DNA of 32,295 bases from a virus, in IMG/VR virus record IMGVR_UViG_3300042361_000244, positions 1 through 32,295 of that record; one strand, 5' to 3'. Position numbers and translations under genes: made by a program. Below, in pieces: positions 10,789-31,719 of the stretch. Position 1 is the stretch's first letter. Each line of letters begins with the position of its first letter. The notes under the pieces are model-generated. The model was not told the origin of the DNA. It saw only the letters and a list, made by a program, of their open reading frames with translations, and made no database searches.

Positions 10789-12393
10789 TTAGATAGTATT
10801 TAAACCAGCAATATATACTTTACCATAGTAGTCAGGACGGATCATCTTCTTAGCGTAACGAGTCATTAAACCTTTTCTTGGAGTGAAGGTATTAGGATCG
10901 TAAAGAAGTGGAGTCATGATTAATGGAACATATGGAGCAAATACGGCACCACACTCTAAGAATTGAGCACCTTTGTAACCCATTAAGATTACGTTCTCAG
11001 TCATGTAAGGGTTTTTGTAAACCTTGTAACGACTATTTAAAGAACCAACCTTTTGGATACCGAAGTTGAATTCAGATTTTTCACCATCACCATCAGAAGC
11101 AAATCCAGGGATTGATTCTAAGATAGTAGCTACAGAAGGAGAAGTTACTAAGAAATTAGCACCACCTCTTAAAGTTAACTGATGAATTGTGTTTGATACT
11201 TTTTGTAATTTAGTACCTAAAGTTTGGAACCAACCACCTTGAGTGTTAAGGAAACCTAAATCTGCAGTAGTAACACCTGAAGCACCTACAGCTTGGTTGT
11301 TAATTGCTGACCAATATTCAGTTGTATAAGCGTTTTGGATTAACATATCTAAGATCTCTAAATCAATCTCCATAGAGATGTATTGAGATAAGATACCAGT
11401 TAATTCAGCTTCAGCATCAACACTATGGTAAGCGTTAAGATCCTGAGCGAATTCTGGAGTCCATTGTGCTTTTAACTTACGAGTCTTAGCAACGATAGCT
11501 TCAGATTTTAACTGTACGTTAATTTCTGGGATAGCGATTGTAGTTGAACTTTGTGCGTTTGGATAACCAGCACCTGATGCATCTTCGAAATCACCACGAG
11601 CAGCTGGAGTAGGTTGGATGTCATAGTACAATTGTACTGTTTGAGCACCACCAGTTGTAGCAGCAACTAAAGAACCAGTTACAACGAAAGAAGCTGTGTT
11701 GTTAGATACAGTTGTAAATTGTTGTAAAATGTTTGCAACAGTGATAGAACCTGAAGTAAATACGAATGAACGAACAGCGTTCAAATCAGCAGTTGCAGGT
11801 AATGGAACTAAGACAGTCTTATATTGATCAAAAGAAGCACTATAGTTACTATCTAAGTTAAATGTAGCCCAACTAGTAGAACCAGTTAGAGAAGCAATTG
11901 AAGATGAGAATTGGTTGATTGAGTAACCAAATTTACCAGCACCGTAAAGTGATTGAGAGGTAATGTCAGTTACGTTTGTAGTTGCATTAGCACCATATAA
12001 AGATCCACCTGCAGTAAATGGTTTAACACCAGTACCGTATTTGAAATCAAGATAGAATACAAGACCTGAAGGTAAGTTCATTGGTTGTACACTAACGAAT
12101 TCTTTAGCAGCGATTTCACCGAATACACGACGAACTAATGGTAAAGCTACACCAGCCCAGTTTTCACTGTTGTATCCACCACCAGTCATGCTGTTGGTTC
12201 CACCAGTTACACTAGATTCAGTCATTAATTGTTTTGCTTGGTTTTCCAATAGCATAGCCATTGTGTTTTTGTCTGTAGTAGATTTGATACCTTCTAAAAG
12301 GCCAGATTTTGCCCACTTTCCAGACAATCTTTTAGCATCTTCCATTACTACTTTGTATTGGTTAGAGCTTTCTAATAATTGTTGTACGTTCAT
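10789..12393 (-). CDS. 23: Major capsid protein, T4 gp23-like (534 aa)
   Basis: This is the main head shell subunit. The N-terminal delta domain has LLENQAKQLMTE (48-59), then a Gly/Ser/Thr-rich stretch and ALPLVRRVFGEIAAKEFVSV followed by QPMNLPSGLVFYLDFKYGTG (about 83-122), the conserved gp23 core. The length is close to T4's 521. T4 gp23 is matured by gp21 cleavage after residue 65; the equivalent site here is probably LMTE after residue 59, by inference. A strong terminator follows the gene. The leader is A/T-rich without a Shine-Dalgarno sequence, which is notable for what should be the most abundant virion protein. The gene is 35 bases downstream of the scaffold gene and probably on the same transcript. 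Confidence 0.95.
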   Translation of the reverse strand: MNVQQLLESSNQYKVVMEDAKRLSGKWAKSGLLEGIKSTTDKNTMAMLLENQAKQLMTESSVTGGTNSMTGGGYNSENWAGVALPLVRRVFGEIAAKEFVSVQPMNLPSGLVFYLDFKYGTGVKPFTAGGSLYGANATTNVTDITSQSLYGAGKFGYSINQFSSSIASLTGSTSWATFNLDSNYSASFDQYKTVLVPLPATADLNAVRSFVFTSGSITVANILQQFTTVSNNTASFVVTGSLVAATTGGAQTVQLYYDIQPTPAARGDFEDASGAGYPNAQSSTTIAIPEINVQLKSEAIVAKTRKLKAQWTPEFAQDLNAYHSVDAEAELTGILSQYISMEIDLEILDMLIQNAYTTEYWSAINNQAVGASGVTTADLGFLNTQGGWFQTLGTKLQKVSNTIHQLTLRGGANFLVTSPSVATILESIPGFASDGDGEKSEFNFGIQKVGSLNSRYKVYKNPYMTENVILMGYKGAQFLECGAVFAPYVPLIMTPLLYDPNTFTPRKGLMTRYAKKMIRPDYYGKVYIAGLNTI

Positions 12394-12428: not shown

Positions 12429-13778
12429 TTAAAATTTTGTTATACCAGCTAACATCTTCCATCTAGCAACAGTATCGTCAACTTGTACGATTTGTTTTTG
12501 TGGAGCTACACCAGCTGCTTTTGAAGCAAATCCTAATGATTCTTTGATTGTAGTTTTCTTAGCTACTGCTAATGCACTATTCATTGATTCGTAAAGATTT
12601 TTAGCTTCTTTTGTAGTAGTTGCTTTATCAAATTGAGCAATTACTCTTAGTTTTTGTGATTCAGTTAAGTTTTTATCTTTGAAGATTCTGTTAACGTAAA
12701 GCAACTTAGCATTTAGTAAGTTAGTTTCGTTTAATTCATTACGAAGAGCTTTAATTGTTTTAATAGCTTCGTACATTTCATTATCGTCTTCTTCAGAGAT
12801 ATTAGATGATAATTTAGAATATCCTTTACCAGCAGCTACTGCTTTTTTCATTGCAGCTGGAGAGTATTCGTCTTGGTATGCTTTCTTAACGTTTCCTATA
12901 CCTTTTTTAACGGCGGTGCCTATTTTCTTAACAGTATCACCTATTCCTTCTTCCATATCTTCTTCTTCTTCAAGATTAGACGGTAATTTGGAATATCCTT
13001 TACCAGCAGCTACTGCTTTTTTCATTGCTTCTGGCGAAATTTCATCGTTGTAAAATTTCTTTAATTTAGCTAATTTCTCAGCGCTAAGTGAACCGATTTT
13101 CTTAACGAAATCAGATACACCTTCTTTCATGTCATCAGCATCGTTGTCTTCATTTTCATTTAATGAATCTAATTCAGCTAATAACTCATCTAAATTGAAT
13201 TCTTCATCTTCAGCTCCGATTTCTTCTTCACCACCCATACCGTCTACGTCTAATGACATATCATCTCCACCCATTTCAGCTTCTTCGTCTTCTGAAGTTT
13301 CATACTCTTCAGTTTCTAATTCACTTGAAACGATGTCTTTAATCATGTCTTTTAATTCGTCAACAGTTAAGTCAGTGATTTTTTCATCTTCTTCAGATTC
13401 ATCATCTTTTTTAGATGCTTTTTTGTCATCTTTCTTGTCGTCTTTTTTATCGTCTTTTTTAGCTTCATTCATATCGTCACCGAAATCTAAATCTGCTAAA
13501 ATCTCAGATAAATCAAAATCTTCTTCTAAACCATCATCTTCCATGTCAGAATAAGCCTGTGCTTGTGCGGCGTCATCTGATTCTATATCTTCTAGATCAG
13601 AATAATCGTCGTCATCATCTTCTGGGTCTTCCATTTCTTGAAGTTTTGCTGATAACATAGATTGAAGTTTTGGTGCAAGTGCTTCTTCCAAAGCTACTTT
13701 TGCGTTTGCTAACGCTGCTTCGCGAACTGCTTTGGCGTCGGCGATAGCCTCTTTGAATAAGTCTTTGTTTGTACTCAT
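12429..13778 (-). CDS. 22: Prohead core scaffold protein, T4 gp22-like, acidic (449 aa)
   Basis: This is the internal scaffold around which the prohead assembles, later degraded by the protease. The first part is helical and Ala-rich. A very acidic middle follows, with D/E runs and a KKDD repeat near 105-125. Two copies of a 13-residue motif MKKAVAAGKGYSK lie near 250 and 310, each next to an acidic run and an IG(D/N)-VKK segment. The C-terminal third (LNETNLLNAKLLYVNRIFKD, then LTESQKLRVIAQFDKATTTKEAK) is helical and looks like a conserved scaffold domain. The protein ends VARWKMLAGITKF, a motif shared with other proteins here. It lies between protease and capsid genes as in T4, but is much longer than the 269-residue T4 gp22. 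It has the clearest Shine-Dalgarno in the window. Confidence 0.85.
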   Translation of the reverse strand: MSTNKDLFKEAIADAKAVREAALANAKVALEEALAPKLQSMLSAKLQEMEDPEDDDDDYSDLEDIESDDAAQAQAYSDMEDDGLEEDFDLSEILADLDFGDDMNEAKKDDKKDDKKDDKKASKKDDESEEDEKITDLTVDELKDMIKDIVSSELETEEYETSEDEEAEMGGDDMSLDVDGMGGEEEIGAEDEEFNLDELLAELDSLNENEDNDADDMKEGVSDFVKKIGSLSAEKLAKLKKFYNDEISPEAMKKAVAAGKGYSKLPSNLEEEEDMEEGIGDTVKKIGTAVKKGIGNVKKAYQDEYSPAAMKKAVAAGKGYSKLSSNISEEDDNEMYEAIKTIKALRNELNETNLLNAKLLYVNRIFKDKNLTESQKLRVIAQFDKATTTKEAKNLYESMNSALAVAKKTTIKESLGFASKAAGVAPQKQIVQVDDTVARWKMLAGITKF

Positions 13779-13930: not shown

Positions 13931-14548
13931 TTAACACAATGGACAAACGCCAGTTGCATTACATATAATTTCAGTTATTAAACTATTTATTCTACTATAA
14001 TCCTTAGATGGTTTATATTGTTTACCTTCAGCTAATGACATATACGCCTGTGGTGTACTAGGTACTGATACCAAATCCCAACATAATAATTCAAAATCAT
14101 CTTGTACTTCAACTGTTTCACCTAGTTGTTTAACACTACCCATACCACGTGATGATATACCAAGTGGAATATTAGATAATATTAATGCTTTAGCAATGTT
14201 GCCTGAAGGTGTTGGTAATAACTGTAATTTACCCATTAAATCGTTTCCTTCCCACCATACTTCTGTAATAACGTGAGATGTATTTGATAGGTTAACAACA
14301 GATGCTTCAGGGTGATCTAATTCACCTAGAGCAGTACGTGTTTTTACTGGTCCTTCCATATATTTTTGAACTTCTCTTTCAAGAATTTCACGAGGGTATA
14401 CACGACCATTACCATTCTTTTGTTCAGCTTCTTGTAGTTTACCTACAAGAGTAACAAGAGATTTACCCTCGTTTAACTGTTTGTTTTCAACAATAGTTAA
14501 ATTAGCTAATTGAGGGAGTGTATAATCTATTAATAATGTCTTATTCAT
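13931..14548 (-). CDS. 21: Prohead core protease, T4 gp21-like (205 aa)
   Basis: This serine protease sits in the prohead core and cleaves scaffold, capsid and internal proteins after (I/L)xE-type sites. The herpesvirus-assemblin-like fold is indicated by GELDHP with the catalytic His79, GISSRGMGS with the serine at 132 or 133, and FELLCWDLVSVPSTPQAYM carrying a conserved Asp (158). The length is close to T4 gp21 (212). The C-terminus ends with three cysteines in ten residues (ICNATGVCPLC), which is unusual for a cytoplasmic protease. The stop of the upstream 565-residue gene lies one base before this start region, so the two are probably cotranslated. A terminator follows the gene. Confidence 0.93.
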   Translation of the reverse strand: MNKTLLIDYTLPQLANLTIVENKQLNEGKSLVTLVGKLQEAEQKNGNGRVYPREILEREVQKYMEGPVKTRTALGELDHPEASVVNLSNTSHVITEVWWEGNDLMGKLQLLPTPSGNIAKALILSNIPLGISSRGMGSVKQLGETVEVQDDFELLCWDLVSVPSTPQAYMSLAEGKQYKPSKDYSRINSLITEIICNATGVCPLC

Positions 14549-16259: not shown

Positions 16260-16388
16260 TTATCTACCTTGTCCTCTATAAGCCTTTGGACGTGGATTGT
16301 GTTTATTATATGATTTCTTAGCTGCGCCTTGTTTACGTTTACCAAAGTTAACCTTATTATTGGAAGCGGATGATTTTGCTTTTGCCAT
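16260..16388 (-). CDS. Small basic protein in the head module (42 aa)
   Basis: A short frame encodes MAKAKSSASNNKVNFGKRKQ, then a tail rich in Lys, Arg, Gly, Asn and Tyr ending RPKAYRGQGR. Its ATG overlaps the stop of the 481-residue gene by one base (TAATG), as at several gene borders here, and it fills the gap before the 565-residue gene with only 12 bases spare. The strongly positive, disordered composition would suit nucleic-acid or acidic-scaffold contact. No family is recognised. Confidence 0.7.
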   Translation of the reverse strand: MAKAKSSASNNKVNFGKRKQGAAKKSYNKHNPRPKAYRGQGR

Positions 16389-17833
16389 TATTGGTTAAGA
16401 TTTTTAATTTTATTGTTAAGTTGGTTTACCATTTCTGATATATTTGCTACATTTTTCTGTGTTGCTTTCCAATATCTAATACCTTCTTCACCTTCACTCA
16501 ATTCTTGTTTCATACGAGAAGTGTATTCTACTATACGATCAATTTCAGTTAATTTACGTTTTACTTCACGAATAGCTTTATGTAGTTGTTCAGATTTAGT
16601 TCTGAATTTAACATCTTTTTTAAATTTACCGTATGATACTTCATTAAGTAATTCTTCTTTAATGATATCACTCAGTGATTCGTATAACTTAGTGTTAATA
16701 CCACCGTGTACTCTTACTCTATCATATACATCAGCATCTTTATCACTTTTCTTTTTTTGCTTTACAGCAAATGGATTTTTTACATACCATATATCATCAC
16801 TAACAGCAGGCATTAATTTTTCAACATTGATTGCGTTGCTGCTCGCTAACTTATTTGCTATTCTGGAAGCTAATTGTATTGAATTACCAGTATCTAATGA
16901 AAATTGTCTAGGCGTATTTTCTTTATCTTTATTTTTATATAACCAAATTAAGAATTCTAGTTCATTTTCTAAACCTGCTGCTTTACTAGGCTCAGCTTTA
17001 ATAGCTTTTAAAAACTGTATTCCTTTAGGAGCAATACTTACAATATCGTTAGAAACAGAAGAACTAACTGGATCTGGTGTTCTAGATAAAATTAAATCTA
17101 AAGCAATAAAACCATTGCTGGTTATTTTAGCACCTTGAGCTGCTTTTTTAATTTCTCCTCTAGTACCAGCTGGCATTTTTTCTTTTAAATATCTAGTTAA
17201 AGCAGGTAGTAATATTTCTTTATCAAAAGAACTTCTACCCCTTTCAATAGCGTCTAATGCAGTTTTAACTAAAGGATCAATCATTAATATTGTTTCCCCT
17301 TTACTATTGGTAAATATTTTAAAATATATTTTAGATGTTTCCCCTAATTTAATAGGTTCAAGTAAAAATGAAGGAAATTCATATTCAAGTGGAATTCGAA
17401 AAGATTTAGATCCTGCTTTTTTCTTGTTAGGATCATAGAATGAAAATTCTGCTTCGTTCATATCAGTATTGTTTTGGTAATAATTATCACCCTTAATACC
17501 ACCTCCTGTATAACCGCTAGCTGCTGTATAGCCACTAGCTGCTCCATAAGATGATGCTTGATCATAATTACTTTCTTTGTATATATTGTATTTTTTCTTT
17601 TTAGCTGAGGGCCATATAGATTTATAATCTCTCACTTTGGAATCTCCAGGCATTTGTGTTTCGCCTTTTGTTACTTTCCAACCTTCATCTTCAGCTGCAG
17701 CCACTGCTGCATTTTTCTTTTGGCCTTTCTTAGCAAAGGCAAATGGAGTAGAATAACCACCAACACCAGATGTAGATGATTCTTCATCTAACAGTTCTTG
17801 TACTAGTTTTTTGATGTATTCTTTAAATTCCAT
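16388..17833 (-). CDS. Head-module protein with terminal and internal LxE sites (481 aa)
   Basis: No named family recognised. The N-terminus MEFKEYIKKLVQELLDE is an amphipathic helix ending in LDE, then GVGGYSTPFAFAKKG and a Gly/Tyr/Ala repeat (SSYGAASGYTAASGYTGGG near 105). A folded middle region spans about 130-370. Near residue 390 a second helix-like stretch SLSDIIKEELLNE occurs, followed by a Lys/Arg-rich helical domain of about 80 residues to the end. The pattern looks like two mature chains separated by a protease site, if gp21 cuts after LNE. The gene overlaps its upstream neighbour by one base and lies in the portal-to-protease interval, pointing to a prohead core or internal protein. 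Confidence 0.75.
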   Translation of the reverse strand: MEFKEYIKKLVQELLDEESSTSGVGGYSTPFAFAKKGQKKNAAVAAAEDEGWKVTKGETQMPGDSKVRDYKSIWPSAKKKKYNIYKESNYDQASSYGAASGYTAASGYTGGGIKGDNYYQNNTDMNEAEFSFYDPNKKKAGSKSFRIPLEYEFPSFLLEPIKLGETSKIYFKIFTNSKGETILMIDPLVKTALDAIERGRSSFDKEILLPALTRYLKEKMPAGTRGEIKKAAQGAKITSNGFIALDLILSRTPDPVSSSVSNDIVSIAPKGIQFLKAIKAEPSKAAGLENELEFLIWLYKNKDKENTPRQFSLDTGNSIQLASRIANKLASSNAINVEKLMPAVSDDIWYVKNPFAVKQKKKSDKDADVYDRVRVHGGINTKLYESLSDIIKEELLNEVSYGKFKKDVKFRTKSEQLHKAIREVKRKLTEIDRIVEYTSRMKQELSEGEEGIRYWKATQKNVANISEMVNQLNNKIKNLNQ

Positions 17834-22992: not shown

Positions 22993-23985
22993 TTATTTTA
23001 TAATTCCTGCACGGTATTTTAATTGTTCCATAAACCATTCATCAATTGGCTCTTCTGGTTTTTCTTTAGCCTGATTTGCTTTGGCTTGACGTTTTTGCAA
23101 ATATTCTGATCCTGCTATTAGATCATTTATTCTTTGCTCTAATGAGGCTTTTAAATCTATCAAACGTTGTAATTCAGATGATGGTTTATCTTTGAAATCA
23201 CCAGCTACATTTTTTGATCTTCTTGCTTTAAATATATCACTTTTTACTTTATTTAAACGTGCTTCTAAATCAGATACTTTCATGAAGTTTTGATAATCTT
23301 CATCAGGTATTCCAAGATCAGATGTTTTGCTTACTATTGGTTCTTCTTCACCGGATTGTTTCATTTTAGCAAACATTGCGTCTACTTCTTCATCACTCAT
23401 ATCACCTACGATAAAGTCAAATTCATCGCTTGTTTCTTCTTCTTCATCATCCTCTTCATCATCAGCTACATCGCTCGGTACATCTCCGAAACCACCAATA
23501 TCTCTTTTCTTTATAGTTACGGGTTTAATAGGAGTAAAATCATCAGCGGCTGCTCGTGGTGCTTTTTGTTCCTCAGCAGCTACAATTACACCTCTAGCTA
23601 CCAATTCCATAAAATCTGAGTTTACTGGCTGTTGTTTGTTATATCCTAACTCATATGCTAAGTCTATTTTAGAAATAGGCTCATCAATCTCTTTCATTTT
23701 ACTTACGATACGATTTTTCTTACCAGTAAATTTTCCGGGATCAACATCAGGAGCTAATTCATAACGTAATGCTACGTTAGCTAATTCATCTAATTTATCT
23801 TCAGATACTACTGATGTTCTACCTGATGATAGGTCTGATTTTTTAGCGTTTAATGCCGTTATTTGTTTATTAATAGAATTTAATTCTGCATCTTTAGCTG
23901 CTTTCTCTTGGGGAGTTATTTCAGCTTCGTTCACTACTTCATTTATAGCTTTACGTATAATTTGTCTTAATTCAGATTTTTTCAT
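22993..23985 (-). CDS. Tagged putative internal protein (330 aa)
   Basis: The chosen start is the ATG at 23985, giving MKKSELRQIIRKAINE; a longer frame to 24039 would add 18 residues, overlap the kinase gene and hide the shared leader. The leader ends in INE, a good prohead-protease-type site. Behind it are a coiled-coil-like stretch, a possible small helical domain (LANVALRYELAPDVDPGKFT, about 60-130), an acidic linker with DEEDDEEEE, and a charged helical C-terminal third. The last residues EWFMEQLKYRAGIIK resemble the RWKMLAGITKF end of the scaffold, so both ends of this protein carry shared motifs. The leader has an AATATTTA box 22 bases upstream. No enzymatic motif is visible. Confidence 0.78.
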   Translation of the reverse strand: MKKSELRQIIRKAINEVVNEAEITPQEKAAKDAELNSINKQITALNAKKSDLSSGRTSVVSEDKLDELANVALRYELAPDVDPGKFTGKKNRIVSKMKEIDEPISKIDLAYELGYNKQQPVNSDFMELVARGVIVAAEEQKAPRAAADDFTPIKPVTIKKRDIGGFGDVPSDVADDEEDDEEEETSDEFDFIVGDMSDEEVDAMFAKMKQSGEEEPIVSKTSDLGIPDEDYQNFMKVSDLEARLNKVKSDIFKARRSKNVAGDFKDKPSSELQRLIDLKASLEQRINDLIAGSEYLQKRQAKANQAKEKPEEPIDEWFMEQLKYRAGIIK

Positions 23986-25001: not shown

Positions 25002-26309
25002 TTATTTAATTAATTTTTCTGCAATGTATATTCCGTGTGCTCCTGATACTGTTATTCCTCTAGCTGATAAAGCATCACCAGCAAAATACACATTTGGATA
25101 ATCAGTTAATGATAAATCAGTATAGTTAACTAGTGGTTCAGGTGATAAATACTTTACTTCCGGTAAATATATTCCCCAATCATCTCCAAAGTTAAATACT
25201 TTATTCATATCGTCTATAAAATCTTCAATATAATAGAAATATGATCCCATAGCTTCAATTAATGGTACTAAAGTATCTATTGGATAAGATGTCACTGGAG
25301 TACCTTCTGATGTTAGTCCTGAAATACGAGTACGATTAGGTGAATAGTATAATCCTTTTCCATTGACTTGTAATTTAGAAACAACTTTTCTACTCCATTC
25401 AAATGGATTTTCAATACCTTTAATTTCCATTAAGATGCCAAAATTAGTCATATCGTTTCTAAATTCCTCACCTTTCTTAGCATGACCATTATATGTAATA
25501 TCACCATATGTTTCCTCTACTGCTACATAAGCAGCATTGTTGTTAGTACAGAATGAACGTATAGATACATTTTCAAATTTTTGATATAATTTGAAATCAT
25601 AAGACACATCAATCAATTTTTGGAAATAATGTTGTGGTGCTTCAAAACGAGCTCCTATTTGTACTGATTTGGGTTCAGTTGGTAATTTATATTGGTCTGC
25701 TAATTGTTTACCGAAGTCTATTCCTGATTTACCTACTGCAAATATCAATTCATCATAATTCATCCACCCTCCGATTTCAGAACTAGGATCATCTAACAAA
25801 TATACATTGCTTTGTTCAAATTCAATCTTAGTTACTTCAGTATTCCATTTAAACTTAACACCTTTATCTAACAAATATTGATACCATGTTTTAGCAATCT
25901 CATGTAAGAAATTAGAACCAATGTGCCATACAGGAAACATACGTAATCCAAAATATGGTTTAATAAATTCAGGTTCCTCTTGTGGATTAGATAAGAATAT
26001 TTCATCTGGTTTAGGGTGAAAACGAGTAAAGTTATCTACTACTTGTTTCATCAATTCCATAGCTTTTTCTTCACCACAATATTTTGACAATTGTCCACCA
26101 ATTGATGTGTGGTATGTTAATTTACCATCACTCCATCCACCAGCGCCTAGCATACCAGTCATTACTTCTTCAGGTAAACGACTGTGTGGGTCATTACCTT
26201 TGTCTATGATAGTAATCAGTTCACCAGGATAGCCATTGTCTACTAGCTTAGTAGCAGCATTAATTCCTGCTACTCCAGCTCCAATAATCACAATTTTTTT
26301 ACTTTGCAT
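25002..26309 (-). CDS. FAD-dependent dehydrogenase, COG2509-like (435 aa)
   Basis: A Rossmann dinucleotide-binding start (KIVIIGAGVAGINAA, GxGxxG at 10-15) is followed by an acidic ribose-binding position around IIDKG. Residues 52-63 read GMLGAGGWSDGK, which matches the G-(G/A)-AG-x-(F/W)-SDGKL signature I associate with COG2509 dehydrogenases. The C-terminus NVYFAGDALSARGITVSGAHG (near 409-429) is the second FAD-contacting motif. The length is near that of the family. The protein has no signal peptide and is probably soluble. Its 5' end overlaps denV by 11 bases, so the two are likely coexpressed. The reaction is unknown; an oxidoreductase of this kind is an uncommon phage cargo and may be an auxiliary metabolic gene taken from a bacterium. 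Confidence 0.9.
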   Translation of the reverse strand: MQSKKIVIIGAGVAGINAATKLVDNGYPGELITIIDKGNDPHSRLPEEVMTGMLGAGGWSDGKLTYHTSIGGQLSKYCGEEKAMELMKQVVDNFTRFHPKPDEIFLSNPQEEPEFIKPYFGLRMFPVWHIGSNFLHEIAKTWYQYLLDKGVKFKWNTEVTKIEFEQSNVYLLDDPSSEIGGWMNYDELIFAVGKSGIDFGKQLADQYKLPTEPKSVQIGARFEAPQHYFQKLIDVSYDFKLYQKFENVSIRSFCTNNNAAYVAVEETYGDITYNGHAKKGEEFRNDMTNFGILMEIKGIENPFEWSRKVVSKLQVNGKGLYYSPNRTRISGLTSEGTPVTSYPIDTLVPLIEAMGSYFYYIEDFIDDMNKVFNFGDDWGIYLPEVKYLSPEPLVNYTDLSLTDYPNVYFAGDALSARGITVSGAHGIYIAEKLIK

Positions 26310-26761: not shown

Positions 26762-27211
26762 TTACACTTCATCATCCATTTCGAAATCAGCTAAGATATC
26801 ATCAACACTCTTTGTAGCTTTATTAGTTCCACCCATAGAGCTTCCAGCTGTGTACCCAGCTCTACTAGCAAATCCAAGTTCTTCTACTGTGTTAAAGAAT
26901 TTATTAACATCCGGTTGTTTTTTACCTAATAAATTAGCATAGTCTATCTTTTGTACTCTTTTACCATCTTTTTTAGCATTGTATAAGAATTTTAAAATTT
27001 CAAGATGATTAATTCCGATACCCATAGGTAAGGAACCACCAGCTTTTAAACTTCTTAATAATGATTCACCTTCAGGAGTGATAGTGTAGGCACCACCCGT
27101 ACCTGCTGTACGAGCCATTTCGTCCATTTCTTCAGCTTCGTTGAACTGAGATTCGTTAATCATACCAGCTAATAGCTGTAATCTTCTTGTTTCGATTATT
27201 TGTTTTTTCAT
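26762..27211 (-). CDS. RLQxLAGM-tagged protein with a possible winged helix (149 aa)
   Basis: The N-terminus MKKQIIETRRLQLLAGMINE carries the R(W/L)xxLAGI-type motif followed by an INE site. An acidic linker and AYTITPEGESLLRSLKAGGS follow. Residues about 65-120 (HLEILKFLYNAKKDGKRVQK, then YANLLGKKQPDVNKFFNTV and EELGFASR) look like a winged-helix DNA-binding fold: a first helix, a recognition-helix region and a short wing. The acidic C-terminus ends ADFEMDDEV. If both readings are right, this is a DNA-binding protein with a terminal sorting peptide. It is 14 bases downstream of a gene with a similar tag, and a strong terminator follows. Confidence 0.75.
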   Translation of the reverse strand: MKKQIIETRRLQLLAGMINESQFNEAEEMDEMARTAGTGGAYTITPEGESLLRSLKAGGSLPMGIGINHLEILKFLYNAKKDGKRVQKIDYANLLGKKQPDVNKFFNTVEELGFASRAGYTAGSSMGGTNKATKSVDDILADFEMDDEV

Positions 27212-27225
27212 TTTGGGTTTTTATT

Positions 27226-27660
27226 TTATTGTACTTTGTAAACGTTGTTTCCTATTTTTAAATTATTAATTGTGCTAACATTAATCATTCTATATCCTGA
27301 ATCACTACCGCTTTTTGCTTTAGGATCCCATACTGGTATTAATCCTTTAGCTTCTGGGTTGTATGGTAGTTCTCCACCTTTAAGATAAGCTTTAACTCCT
27401 AAACGAGCATTCATTACACGTGTTGTACCATCTTTTTTAGTAAATGTTACAGTGAAGAATTTACCTTTAGTATTTTTAATTAATTCCTTAGCTTTATCTT
27501 TTGATATAGTACCAGATGGTTCTTCAGGAGTACTAGCGTCGCTGTCAGGCTTTACTTCATCCGGTATTTCAGAATCAGGCACGGCTTGTTCATCCTCGTC
27601 TGCTTCTTTTAAAATACCAGCTAGTTTTTGCCAACGTTTAGCCTCTTTTATTAAATACAT
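27226..27660 (-). CDS. RWQKLAGI-tagged protein with an SH3-like beta domain (144 aa)
   Basis: The N-terminus MYLIKEAKRWQKLAGILKEA has the same motif as the C-terminus of the scaffold (RWKMLAGITKF). An acidic Pro/Ser/Asp-rich linker spans about 20-55. The C-terminal 80 residues (FFTVTFTKKDGTTRVMNARL, then LIPVWD and GYRMINVSTINNLKIGNNVY) are predicted all-beta and match a phage family usually described as SH3-barrel-like; I am moderately sure of that name and know no function. A TATATTTA box lies 18 bases before the ATG. Confidence 0.78.
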   Translation of the reverse strand: MYLIKEAKRWQKLAGILKEADEDEQAVPDSEIPDEVKPDSDASTPEEPSGTISKDKAKELIKNTKGKFFTVTFTKKDGTTRVMNARLGVKAYLKGGELPYNPEAKGLIPVWDPKAKSGSDSGYRMINVSTINNLKIGNNVYKVQ

Positions 27661-28719: not shown

Positions 28720-29355
28720 TTATTTAAAATCCTCCATGTAAAACAATATGTATGTTGAAAATTCAGAACCATATCCTAAAGTAGCATCTTCAGCACTAGG
28801 ATCATCAACAGTAAAATCATCAATGTTTTCTTTTAGAAAATCTTGGTTTATTTTTTCAAATTCTTCTCTATCTTCTTCATCATCAATACCTTCAAAAGCG
28901 TATTCTCTTAATAAAGCGATATATTTTTTACTAAGTATAAATTTAGAATCAATACATTTAGTAACATAACATATATTACCGGGTCCTGAGAAATAGTCCA
29001 TCATTCTAACATTTTCTACATCATCAGCCCAAAATGTTATTTTACGTTGTGGTTTATAATTGTAAAGAGAAGTAGTAATATATGTTTTGTTTCCATACCA
29101 ATCAGATAAATTGGTTTGTTTTATATTATTATTATCAATACAATCTTTAATAAAATCATATGTTTTATCACTAATTGGGGTACCTCTGTATAGATGTCGT
29201 CCTACAGGAGGTTGTAATAGGGGATTAGATGATTTATATTTTTCTATTTTTTTAATAAAATTATATACTCTATTGTAGTCTATATCTGTTGTCCAGTCAT
29301 GTCCTAGTAATGGAGCTAAAGTATTTGTTATAGTTTTAATAGAAATTTTTTCCAT
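28720..29355 (-). CDS. Possible ADP-ribosyltransferase-like protein (211 aa)
   Basis: The segment GRHLYRGTPISDKTYDFI (about 52-69) resembles the first, Arg-containing motif of R-S-E-type ADP-ribosyltransferases (LYRG). ITTSLYNYKPQRKITFWADD, with ENVRMMDYF after it, could be the Ser-Thr-Ser-like second motif, and a late YGSEFSTYILF (about 195-205) could supply the catalytic Glu. The order and spacing are reasonable, but the second and third motifs are weak and the final E-x-E is not clear. If correct, it would act on a host protein as T4 ModA/ModB or Alt do. It lies just downstream of the tagged-protein cassette but has no obvious tag itself. Confidence 0.6.
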   Translation of the reverse strand: MEKISIKTITNTLAPLLGHDWTTDIDYNRVYNFIKKIEKYKSSNPLLQPPVGRHLYRGTPISDKTYDFIKDCIDNNNIKQTNLSDWYGNKTYITTSLYNYKPQRKITFWADDVENVRMMDYFSGPGNICYVTKCIDSKFILSKKYIALLREYAFEGIDDEEDREEFEKINQDFLKENIDDFTVDDPSAEDATLGYGSEFSTYILFYMEDFK

Positions 29356-29365
29356 TGTATTTTAT

Positions 29366-29929
29366 TTAAGCTTCAGCAGGTGGTGTTTCTTCTTCTTCAG
29401 GTGCGGCTGGTGCTTCAGCTCCAGCTGGTGTTTCTGTAGGGGGCGCAGCAGGTGCTCCACCTGGTATTTCAGCTGGTGGGGCTCCTGTAACAGCATTAAA
29501 TGCTTCAGCTCCAGCATCAGGTGTATTAGTTTCAATCTCTGATGTTTTTTCATCAATTGAATAATTTAATTCTAATAAATCTGATATACCCTGTGATGCT
29601 CTTTCTAGTTCGCCTAAATTTTGAATATTATATCTTTTACCTGCTACTTTAGCGGTATATGTACCTTTTCCATTATATATAATAGTGAAATCTTCATTAT
29701 TAATTAATTTAACAGAAAATGTAGTTGGTTTAGGGGCAACTATTTCAATATCAGAAATGAATCGACCAAATGCCGGAGACATTAGGTCGATCATTACTTC
29801 TTTTAATTTAGGAAAACGATATACTAAATACATTGCTTGTGTAGCACGTTTTTCTTTTTCTTCTTGTTCTTGAAGAGCCTTACGTACTGCTACTTTAATG
29901 TATTTTTCTAATAATAGTTTTTTATTCAT
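29366..29929 (-). CDS. Tagged putative internal protein with a Pro/Ala/Glu-rich tail (187 aa)
   Basis: The first residues, LLLEKYIKVAVRKALQE from position 5, form an amphipathic helix ending in LQE, like others in this cassette. A compact beta-rich domain follows (about 60-130), with PTTFSVKLINNEDFTIIYNG and KVAGKRYNIQNLGELERASQ. The last 50 residues are low-complexity, rich in Pro, Ala and Glu, probably disordered. It begins two bases after the stop of the 377-residue gene. The domain resembles one I remember in other marine T4-like phages, of unknown function. Confidence 0.76.
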   Translation of the reverse strand: MNKKLLLEKYIKVAVRKALQEQEEKEKRATQAMYLVYRFPKLKEVMIDLMSPAFGRFISDIEIVAPKPTTFSVKLINNEDFTIIYNGKGTYTAKVAGKRYNIQNLGELERASQGISDLLELNYSIDEKTSEIETNTPDAGAEAFNAVTGAPPAEIPGGAPAAPPTETPAGAEAPAAPEEEETPPAEA

Positions 29930-29931
29930 TG

Positions 29932-31065
29932 TTATTTTTTAGCTTGACCTTTCCACATAGCAGCAGCTGCTATTTTTTTTCCTTTTTCACCACCACCCGC
30001 AGCAGCAGCTACTTTTTCAAATCCTTTACCTTTTTTACCTATATCTTTACCAGCACGAGCTTTTGTAGCTACAGCTGACTTTTCCTTTTTAGTCATACCA
30101 GCAGATGGCTTTTTCTTCTTAGCTTTAGCTTCTCTTATGAAGTCACTCCAGCTTAAACCTCTAGAAGATAAAGATCCACTATTCCAATCTTGTTCATCGT
30201 AGTAAGTAGTAATCCAATCTGCTATATCGCTTTCAAGTTTTGCATCATTATTTTCATAGTCAGTGTATTTAAATTCACCTAATATAGCATCAATTATATC
30301 TTTAGCTTCTCTAGGAGTTACATCACTCTCACCAACATTAAGATTATCATTTACATACTTTTCAACTTTATCTTCAAAGTCATATTGACATTCTTCACAT
30401 CCAAGATTTTCTCTCATTTGTGGTTTTAATGTTTTAACAGATATAATCTTATTTCCATCTGGGAATTTTACATATATCTTTGCTCCTTCTTTAGCTTGAG
30501 TTACAGGAGATACTGGATCTACTTTAGTTATGGTTCCAGTGCCATATTTTTTATGGTGAAATTTTTGATCTACTCTATAATCTGTTTTAGGAGTGTAATC
30601 GTATTCTTCTCCGTAATCTTTAGATTTAGCGCTGTGTTGTCTTCCTTTATCTCCTCTTACTTCTTCTAATTCTTCTTTAGGTTTTTTATCTTTTTTAGTA
30701 GGTTTAACAGGAGCCTTTTCAATTAAACCAACCATTTCTTTAATCTTTTCAGTTTCAGAAGCAACTTTACCTTCAACTTCAGAAATTTGGTTATCTAACA
30801 TTTCAGATAATTTGGCGTGTGCTACTTTAATTTTTTCTAACTCATTAACAAACTTTTGCATATGAGCATATTCAGCTACAAATGATGATGGGTTTTCTCC
30901 ATTTTCGTTAATAGCATATTGGCCTAAAGATTCTTTCATTTTTCTTAAGCCATTTAATTCTTTTTTAAGGTGTACTAATTTACCACCACTTTTAGGTAAA
31001 CCACCTTCTTTTTTAACTTCTAGTATTACTTGGCGAATAACTTCGCGTACTTCTGATAAATTCAT
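29932..31065 (-). CDS. Tagged protein with a UvrD-Tudor-like segment and a basic tail (377 aa)
   Basis: The leader MNLSEVREVIRQVILE ends in ILE. A coiled-coil region spans about 30-115, then an acidic/Lys linker. VDQKFHHKKYGTGTITKVDP with AKIYVKFPDGNKIISVKTLK (about 165-215) closely follows the pattern of the C-terminal Tudor-like domain of UvrD/PcrA helicases (G-x-x-V-x-H-x-x-F-G-x-G-x-V ... V-x-F ... K-x-L), which binds RNA polymerase in that family. A helical region comes next. The last 60 residues (MTKKEKSAVATKARAGKDIG to AAAAMWKGQAKK) are strongly basic and match a tail found on other phage proteins. No helicase domain is present. Its 5' end lies 11 bases after the 60-residue gene. Confidence 0.76.
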   Translation of the reverse strand: MNLSEVREVIRQVILEVKKEGGLPKSGGKLVHLKKELNGLRKMKESLGQYAINENGENPSSFVAEYAHMQKFVNELEKIKVAHAKLSEMLDNQISEVEGKVASETEKIKEMVGLIEKAPVKPTKKDKKPKEELEEVRGDKGRQHSAKSKDYGEEYDYTPKTDYRVDQKFHHKKYGTGTITKVDPVSPVTQAKEGAKIYVKFPDGNKIISVKTLKPQMRENLGCEECQYDFEDKVEKYVNDNLNVGESDVTPREAKDIIDAILGEFKYTDYENNDAKLESDIADWITTYYDEQDWNSGSLSSRGLSWSDFIREAKAKKKKPSAGMTKKEKSAVATKARAGKDIGKKGKGFEKVAAAAGGGEKGKKIAAAAMWKGQAKK

Positions 31066-31076
31066 TTTTATTATGT

Positions 31077-31259
31077 TTATTTGTATTTATTTGGTTTACC
31101 GATAGTTGCATCTTTATATCCATTAGTGTATCCTTGTTGGTATATTTCTTCAAATTTCTTCCAATTATCTGTTGGTAGATCTAATTCGTTTAATTTCTTT
31201 TCGTTTATTGCTTCTTTTACAAGCTTACGAAGAACTTCTTTTAATTTGTTATTTGCCAT
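31077..31259 (-). CDS. Tagged small protein (60 aa)
   Basis: I chose the ATG at 31259, giving MANNKLKEVLRKLVKEAINE; the longer frame to 31361 overlaps the upstream gene by 80 bases and hides the leader. The leader ends in INE. The remaining 40 residues include DNWKKFEEIYQQGYTNGYKD, a short helical, Tyr-rich segment. If the protease cuts after INE, a mature peptide of about 40 residues would remain. Confidence 0.7.
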   Translation of the reverse strand: MANNKLKEVLRKLVKEAINEKKLNELDLPTDNWKKFEEIYQQGYTNGYKDATIGKPNKYK

Positions 31260-31281
31260 TTTATATTTTTTATTTATTAGT

Positions 31282-31719
31282 TTACCATTTTTTACAAGAC
31301 CAATAATTAGCTTTCCATCTTGGTCCTGGGTTATCACAATTATGTCTTTTACGATATGCACTGCGGCGTTTTGGGTTGTTTACTTTGATGTTCATTCTTT
31401 TACCCTTAGCTGATTTTCCACCAAAACCAAAGTTAACTTTTACAACCTTACCCTTATTATTCTTAACATATACCTTAAACTTTTTAACATCACCTTGCAT
31501 TGGTTTACCTAGTGTAACTTTACGGCCGTGATACTCAGCTTCAAGTAAACAAGGGCAATCAGCTTCCGCTAATACTTGTTTATAATCACGCATAAATTGA
31601 ATGAATTCCTTAAGATCTTGTTCATTTTCAACATCATATTCATCAACTTCATCTTCATTAGTATAAAGTGTTTCTATAATAGCTTTTTTAACTAACTGTC
31701 TTAATTCTGTTATTTTCAT
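31282..31719 (-). CDS. Tagged protein with a conserved basic Cys/Trp C-terminal domain (145 aa)
   Basis: The leader MKITELRQLVKKAIIE ends in IIE, followed by an acidic stretch. From about residue 65, RKVTLGKPMQGDVKKFKVYV and VNFGFGGKS lead into PKRRSAYRKRHNCDNPGPRW and a final YWSCKKW. This Cys-Trp C-terminal block closely resembles a domain I recall at the ends of many marine phage proteins, of unknown function. Paired cysteines (HNC and WSC) suggest a metal site or disulfide. It begins three bases after the stop of the 90-residue gene. Confidence 0.8.
   Translation of the reverse strand: MKITELRQLVKKAIIETLYTNEDEVDEYDVENEQDLKEFIQFMRDYKQVLAEADCPCLLEAEYHGRKVTLGKPMQGDVKKFKVYVKNNKGKVVKVNFGFGGKSAKGKRMNIKVNNPKRRSAYRKRHNCDNPGPRWKANYWSCKKW

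Follow-up and report, generated by a model that had tools for sequence, protein, structure and literature searches.

A terminal peptide shared by the putative scaffold and small cargo-like proteins of T4-like phages is a probable prohead docking tag

The putative scaffold of a set of T4-like phages ends in a short peptide that recurs at the termini of many small, unrelated phage proteins, and this peptide, R-(M/W/L)-Q-x-L-A-G-(I/L), is probably a terminal docking peptide of the prohead, that is, a propeptide that targets cargo to the capsid, reproduces the scaffold tail and is cut at maturation. The DNA in which it was noticed is a 32,295-base IMG/VR virus record, analysed as a whole and called the window here. 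An initial annotation had pointed to the motif on four of its proteins; that observation is confirmed and proves to be far broader than first noted. The T4-type head genes of the window lie on the minus strand, and the nearby order of S77 protease, 449-aa ORF and capsid protein includes an ORF whose position matches the T4 gene order 21-22-23. By capsid protein identity, the closest isolates are Flavobacterium phage immuto (61%), Microcystis phage Mel-JY01 (49%) and Rhodothermus phage RM378 (39%). The features concerned are:

12429-13778, minus strand: putative gp22-like scaffold ORF, 449 aa, acidic and helical, assigned from its position between the S77 protease and the major capsid protein and from a 32-member alignment.
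12429-12464, minus strand: putative scaffold C-terminal docking peptide, RWKMLAGI-TKF-stop, a predicted helix conserved in 74/74 loci with the end visible.
27226-27660, minus strand: tagged putative cargo 1, with an N-terminal tag, an acidic/proline linker and a WYL_2-like body.
27601-27660, minus strand: cargo 1 N-terminal tag, MYLIKEAKRWQKLAGILKE followed by A, with a predicted cut at Leu-Lys-Glu after residue 19.
26762-27211, minus strand: tagged putative cargo 2, its body without an assigned function.
27149-27211, minus strand: cargo 2 N-terminal tag, MKKQIIETRRLQLLAGMINE followed by S, with a predicted cut at Ile-Asn-Glu after residue 20.
22993-23985, minus strand: possible doubly tagged cargo, with a type-1 N-terminal helix, ELRQIIRKAINE, and a weak C-terminal RAGIIK.
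13931-14548, minus strand: S77 (gp21-type) prohead protease, the presumed tag remover (Pfam PF03420, E 4.9e-31; phrog_207).
10789-12393, minus strand: gp23-type major capsid protein, the candidate docking partner (Pfam PF07068, E 1.9e-78).

All four peptides of the initial annotation were found where it had placed them. Cargo 1 carries RWQKLAGI at residues 9-16, cargo 2 carries RLQLLAGM at residues 10-17, and the scaffold has RWKMLAGI 3 residues ahead of its stop. The fourth, EQLKYRAGIIK, does sit at the end of 22993-23985, but as a copy of the motif it is weak, lacking R at position 0 and L at +4, and it scores below the threshold of the scaffold-tail matrix described below; the same C-terminus is identical in a relative (L466) that is itself 80% identical. 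The three clear copies use different codons. Two other genes of the window were observed in passing: 28720-29355 looks by eye like an ADP-ribosyltransferase, with no Pfam match, and 25002-26309 is FAD/NAD(P)-dependent oxidoreductase-like (Pyr_redox_2, E 3.3e-10), which is unexpected beside head genes.

The 449-aa ORF matched no Pfam or PHROG family. A profile comparison with T4 gp22 gave a weak match (33 columns, probability 24%, E 8.5e-4), and against four gp22s the probability was 0.3%, in a region other than that of the single-gp22 match. Five of 79 loci (L022, L023, L024, L040, L067) stop before the scaffold end, and in all of the 74 usable loci the ORF that separates the S77 protease gene from the capsid gene has the ending RΦxxLA(G/N/F), where Φ is hydrophobic and the last residue is G in 59, N in 13 and F in 2. 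The isolates end in the same way (Mel-JY01 ERMKKLAGIVK, immuto RWQKLAGIIK, RM378 ERIKRLAGL), as does a 484-kb uncultured phage (RMQKLADIS), while scaffolds elsewhere end differently (T4 in SVYAKVASRF, Vibrio phage nt-1 in YLNAARKTR, cyanophages in KYVDAIARWSK). Ahead of the tail, the 32-member alignment has a linker that varies and, at residue 413, an invariant Glu within IKE-S. AlphaFold2 placed an isolated helix at residues 435-443 after a disordered stretch at 409-428 (pLDDT <50), in a model of low confidence overall (mean 63, pTM 0.27). Pooled over loci, 145 distinct ORFs have the motif at the C-terminus: 128 stand directly upstream of a capsid gene, 5 terminate close to the edge of the locus, and the remaining 12 encode other proteins, not next to a capsid gene. 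The motif lies downstream of a Φ-x-E, within 12 residues in 133 of the 145 and at the exact usual place in 106, and the window scaffold, unlike most tails, has IVQ rather than IVE just ahead of it. By position and tail, immuto gp067 (NC_055915, 125626-126867) is also a scaffold, and its annotation as a 'DNA polymerase phi-like protein' is likely wrong. Elsewhere in the set, two neighbouring major capsid protein genes were seen in L014 and L015 / G002, one of them perhaps coding for a vertex protein comparable to T4 gp24.

We surveyed 1277 ORFs (392,186 aa) around the capsid gene of the 79 T4-like loci and in the window with the pattern R-Φ-x-x-L-A-G-Φ. There were 93 matches, every one within 30 residues of a protein end, although such residues make up only 19% of the surveyed sequence. 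With redundancy removed, 77 of 77 were terminal (54 C-terminal, 23 N-terminal), the farthest 27 residues from its end. Shuffled sequences gave a mean of 3.06 matches and a maximum of 8 in 100 shuffles, and the reversed motif gave 1 match in the survey; a chance origin of the motif is rejected on these numbers. A spacing control, with R one residue closer to LAG, returned 18 matches, all terminal, and all 18 belong to one homologous protein, namely the capsid protein at its own end, mostly YYGK(V/I)Y(V/I)AGL(N/D)T(L/I). The capsid protein of the window likewise ends IAGLNTI, which is kept in close relatives, and its likeness to LAGI is possibly coincidental.

The same placement appears when the capsid gene is ignored. 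A scan of IMG/VR for RMQ(K/Q)LAGI found at least 137 distinct ORFs, and among the matches listed 135 of 137 were terminal (82 C-terminal, 53 N-terminal) and 2 internal. For QxLAGIITE, the matches listed comprise 126 ORFs, of which 109 are N-terminal, 3 C-terminal, 3 at a contig edge and 11 internal. A tag-like motif stands within longer ORFs in L179, L191, L280 and L322, and likewise in L289 and L303 with an in-frame Met directly ahead; several of them look like fusions of two cargo modules, and since L303 resembles L235, whose protein stops at the tag, L179, L191, L303 and L322 may be fusions or polyproteins of this kind. The QxLAGIITE pattern has five more internal matches that seem unrelated (L290, L309, L361, L362, L372) and one, in L371, that is an N-terminal tag barely beyond the cut-off. 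A complete scan of a bacterial and archaeal genome collection gave 68 DNA matches, of which 28 lie inside ORFs 171-704 aa long; its terminal matches are mostly in very short frames, and the only two clear scaffold-like tails are those of L470 and L531, which are listed as MAG contigs. A general protein motif is rejected on this result. The initial annotation had named frequent internal occurrence in unrelated phage proteins as the finding that would tell against it; the motif is nearly always terminal, and the idea survives.

N-terminal copies occur on 194 distinct proteins across the pooled loci; without their tags, these proteins form 118 body clusters of up to 22 members. The bodies are short (median 134.5 aa) and 70% of them are acidic; annotation with Pfam, PHROGs and PADLOC yielded almost nothing, and among 110 tagged-body representatives no Pfam or PHROG family was matched by more than one member. 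Most tagged proteins have both motif and cut site inside about the first 25 residues, and in 56 of 78 tags that had not been selected for a cut site Φ-x-E stands at one fixed offset after LAG, against a background of 1.96%. Scaffold tail and N-terminal tag peptides are both amphipathic. Among 22 viral records that bear the motif and were selected for length (at least about 49 kb), S77 is present in 14 and the scaffold in 13; above 100 kb each is present in 9/9, and the 8 records without S77 are all 84 kb or less.

We trained a ten-column matrix on C-terminal tails alone and ran it on 14 genomes or records, where it recovered 14 scaffold tails (one each, partly training data), 15 N-terminal tags and 2 internal matches barely above threshold. 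Seven of the 14 have the tail without any N-terminal tag, so the tail cannot exist for the cargo, and its first role must be the scaffold's. The two versions are not quite alike at position +6, which is Gly in 49/49 N-terminal tags (one unrelated match set aside) and Gly in 47, Asn in 12 and Asp in 1 of the tails (p 0.0002), and the Gly of the tags holds even where the phage's own scaffold ends LANI. The constraints on tags and tails are thus not identical, and the two cannot be equated residue by residue; the stricter need for Gly in the tags may stem from the adjoining cut site. By eye, W at +1 of a scaffold is no guide to the presence of W in the tags of the same genome.

The relatives of cargo 2 (2 loci) and of 22993-23985 (3 loci) were too few to use. 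For cargo 1, the body was searched without its tag, and 80 loci with 57 distinct homologues were kept. Their N-termini carry the LAGI tag in 10 cases, another extension in 31 and none in 13, the 3 unclassified being by eye two with an extension and one without. Many of the alternative extensions are an amphipathic helix with Φ-x-E, for example MKKSELKEIIREELKQIFKEQ, and Φ-x-E is present without the LAGI motif in 31/31 homologues bearing the other tag type. On a domain-only tree of 43 rows the LAGI label changes at least 5 times, at least 2 of them forced by well-supported branches, though the bootstrap had not settled. S77 was found in 18/35 records with an N-terminal extension and in 0/9 without (44 classed records, p 0.006; 3 records that escaped classification were left out, and 2 of these have S77), a link that is suggestive only, because the record lengths differ. 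In the AlphaFold2 model of cargo 1, a separate N-terminal helix spans residues 3-17 at low confidence, and a disordered linker joins it to a body that is confident for the most part. A fold search with cargo 1 found WYL-like and unnamed phage proteins, and no solved match under E 0.001.

These results bear on two other explanations of the peptide. The motif might dock the S77 protease to the scaffold and to cargo pro-peptides, packaging being a by-product, and its place beside Φ-x-E in the tags and shortly downstream of it in the tails would suit such a role; homologues with the other tag type keep Φ-x-E without the motif, however, and the T4 cut site is described as very short, with few other determinants (PMC9026906), so that protease recruitment seems improbable. 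The peptide could also be a functionless duplicate, the 3' end of the scaffold gene having been copied into other genes and kept by descent. Some tagged genes do lie near the scaffold gene, but the number of body clusters, the added cut site, the terminal-only placement, the switching of tags on one body and the differing codons of the window's copies make this origin scarcely credible. That one docking peptide would be common to scaffold and cargo, at either end, is by comparison well supported by the conserved tails, the tail-only matrix and the tag swapping.

A second N-terminal tag type, an amphipathic helix such as ELRQIIRKAINE with Φ-x-E, was noticed by eye on many ORFs of the window (22993-23985, 29366-29929, 29932-31065, 31077-31361, 31282-31719 and 16388-17833). 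On homologues of cargo 1, a helix of this sort stands in place of the LAGI tag. In L279, L280, L310, L316, L370, L306 and L374, MKL(T/L)DIL near the start is combined with an RMKKLAG-type end, giving one tag type at each end.

That the peptide found at the scaffold end recurs beside a likely cut site at the ends of unrelated small proteins makes it probably an address label for loading the head. The home of the peptide would be the C-terminal tail of the gp22-like scaffold, where a short amphipathic helix and hook at the end of a flexible linker would bind a partner inside the growing prohead. Small unrelated phage proteins with a copy of the peptide, mostly N-terminal, could then be drawn into the same binding sites during assembly. 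In the N-terminal version Φ-x-E follows directly, and the active S77 protease would sever the cargo from its docking peptide. If so, the freed cargo would be left in the head and ejected with the DNA.

The most likely partner, in what is an evenly balanced judgement, is the capsid's inner wall, made of the major capsid protein; we favour it because the closest precedent, 80alpha SP and SaPI1 CpmB, binds the capsid wall. A homotypic core contact, the example given in the initial annotation, is one of several possible partners: within the core, and not at the wall, the tags could bind scaffold molecules or else associate tail to tail with the scaffold C-termini. Scaffold and tags do have the peptide in common; in T4, gp22 and the internal proteins co-purify, and the capsid-targeting sequence (CTS) is described as having affinity for the core (PMC9026906). 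Such a contact would require an identical short amphipathic peptide either to self-associate or to bind elsewhere on the scaffold, and the nearest solved tail shared by a scaffold and a second protein binds the coat protein (PMC5644958); we regard the core contact as possible but rather unlikely.

Capsid targeting itself is known, and the unusual value of the finding is that scaffold and cargo share a label. According to a 2023 review, the mechanisms by which proteins come to be placed in the T4 scaffolding core 'remain mysterious', the structure of the core being unresolved (PMC9958956). The same peptide on scaffold and cargo turns the docking question into a few peptide-binding and fusion tests, and the sequence rule marks many uncharacterised proteins of aquatic T4-like phages as probably packaged in the virion. 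The peptide is also a candidate for a modular tag with which proteins could be loaded into heads. Among open-licence PubMed Central papers, we found none on the motif strings, none on the virion proteome of immuto or Mel-JY01, none with a packaging experiment or structure of the tagged proteins, and none linking a targeting sequence to the scaffold tail in T4-like phages.

The closest parallel to the arrangement is that of 80alpha SP and SaPI1 CpmB, which share a C-terminal RIIK helix-and-hook and the same site on the coat protein (PMC5644958). There, as here, a second protein bears the C-terminal peptide of the scaffold, with an amphipathic helix (here predicted) and a short end, and the 12 C-terminal motif proteins that are not beside the capsid gene resemble CpmB in this respect. 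RIIK itself is absent here, the tails ending in LAG/LAN-I(I)K and similar. CpmB redirects capsid size and is itself no cargo, its peptide is C-terminal only, and a cleavable N-terminal version is not described in the accessible text of PMC5644958. In phage P1, a DarB N-terminal signal of under 30 residues is enough to bring a reporter into the head (PMC9024508), which is like the N-terminal packaging signal that we infer here. P1 differs in that the Dar proteins share no consensus and, as far as the accessible text goes, a separate scaffold is not known (PMC9024508).

Phage T4 has the same gp23, S77 protease and scaffold in the gp22 position. Its CTS is a 10-residue N-terminal sequence in which residues 4 and 7 are critical for targeting, and gp21 cuts at L/I-x-E (PMC9026906). 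As on T4 IPI-III, the tag here is a short N-terminal propeptide (about 10-19 aa) on unrelated small proteins, with an L/I-x-E end. The sequences are unlike, MKTYQEFIAEA in T4 against RMQKLAGIITE here, and we saw no homology to the T4 CTS (IPII/III MKTYQEFIAEA, IPI MKTFKEFTS), only a hydrophobic i,i+3 spacing by eye. Further differences are that C-terminal cargo versions exist here, that the bodies here are mostly acidic whereas the T4 internal proteins are described as basic (PMC9026906), and that a copy of the targeting peptide at the scaffold C-terminus is not described for T4 in the accessible text of that paper. The i,i+3 spacing is common to Y/F of T4 MKTYQEF, Y/V of the gp22 end SVYAKVASRF and M/L of RMQKLAGI, a resemblance too short to be significant on its own. 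It is conceivable, if unlikely, that T4-type capsid-targeting sequences in general, those of T4 included, are copies of scaffold tails that compete for wall sites, with maturation cutting both. Engineered P22 capsids are loaded with cargo through fusions to the scaffold protein; that loading is man-made, whereas the system described here is apparently natural and cleavable.
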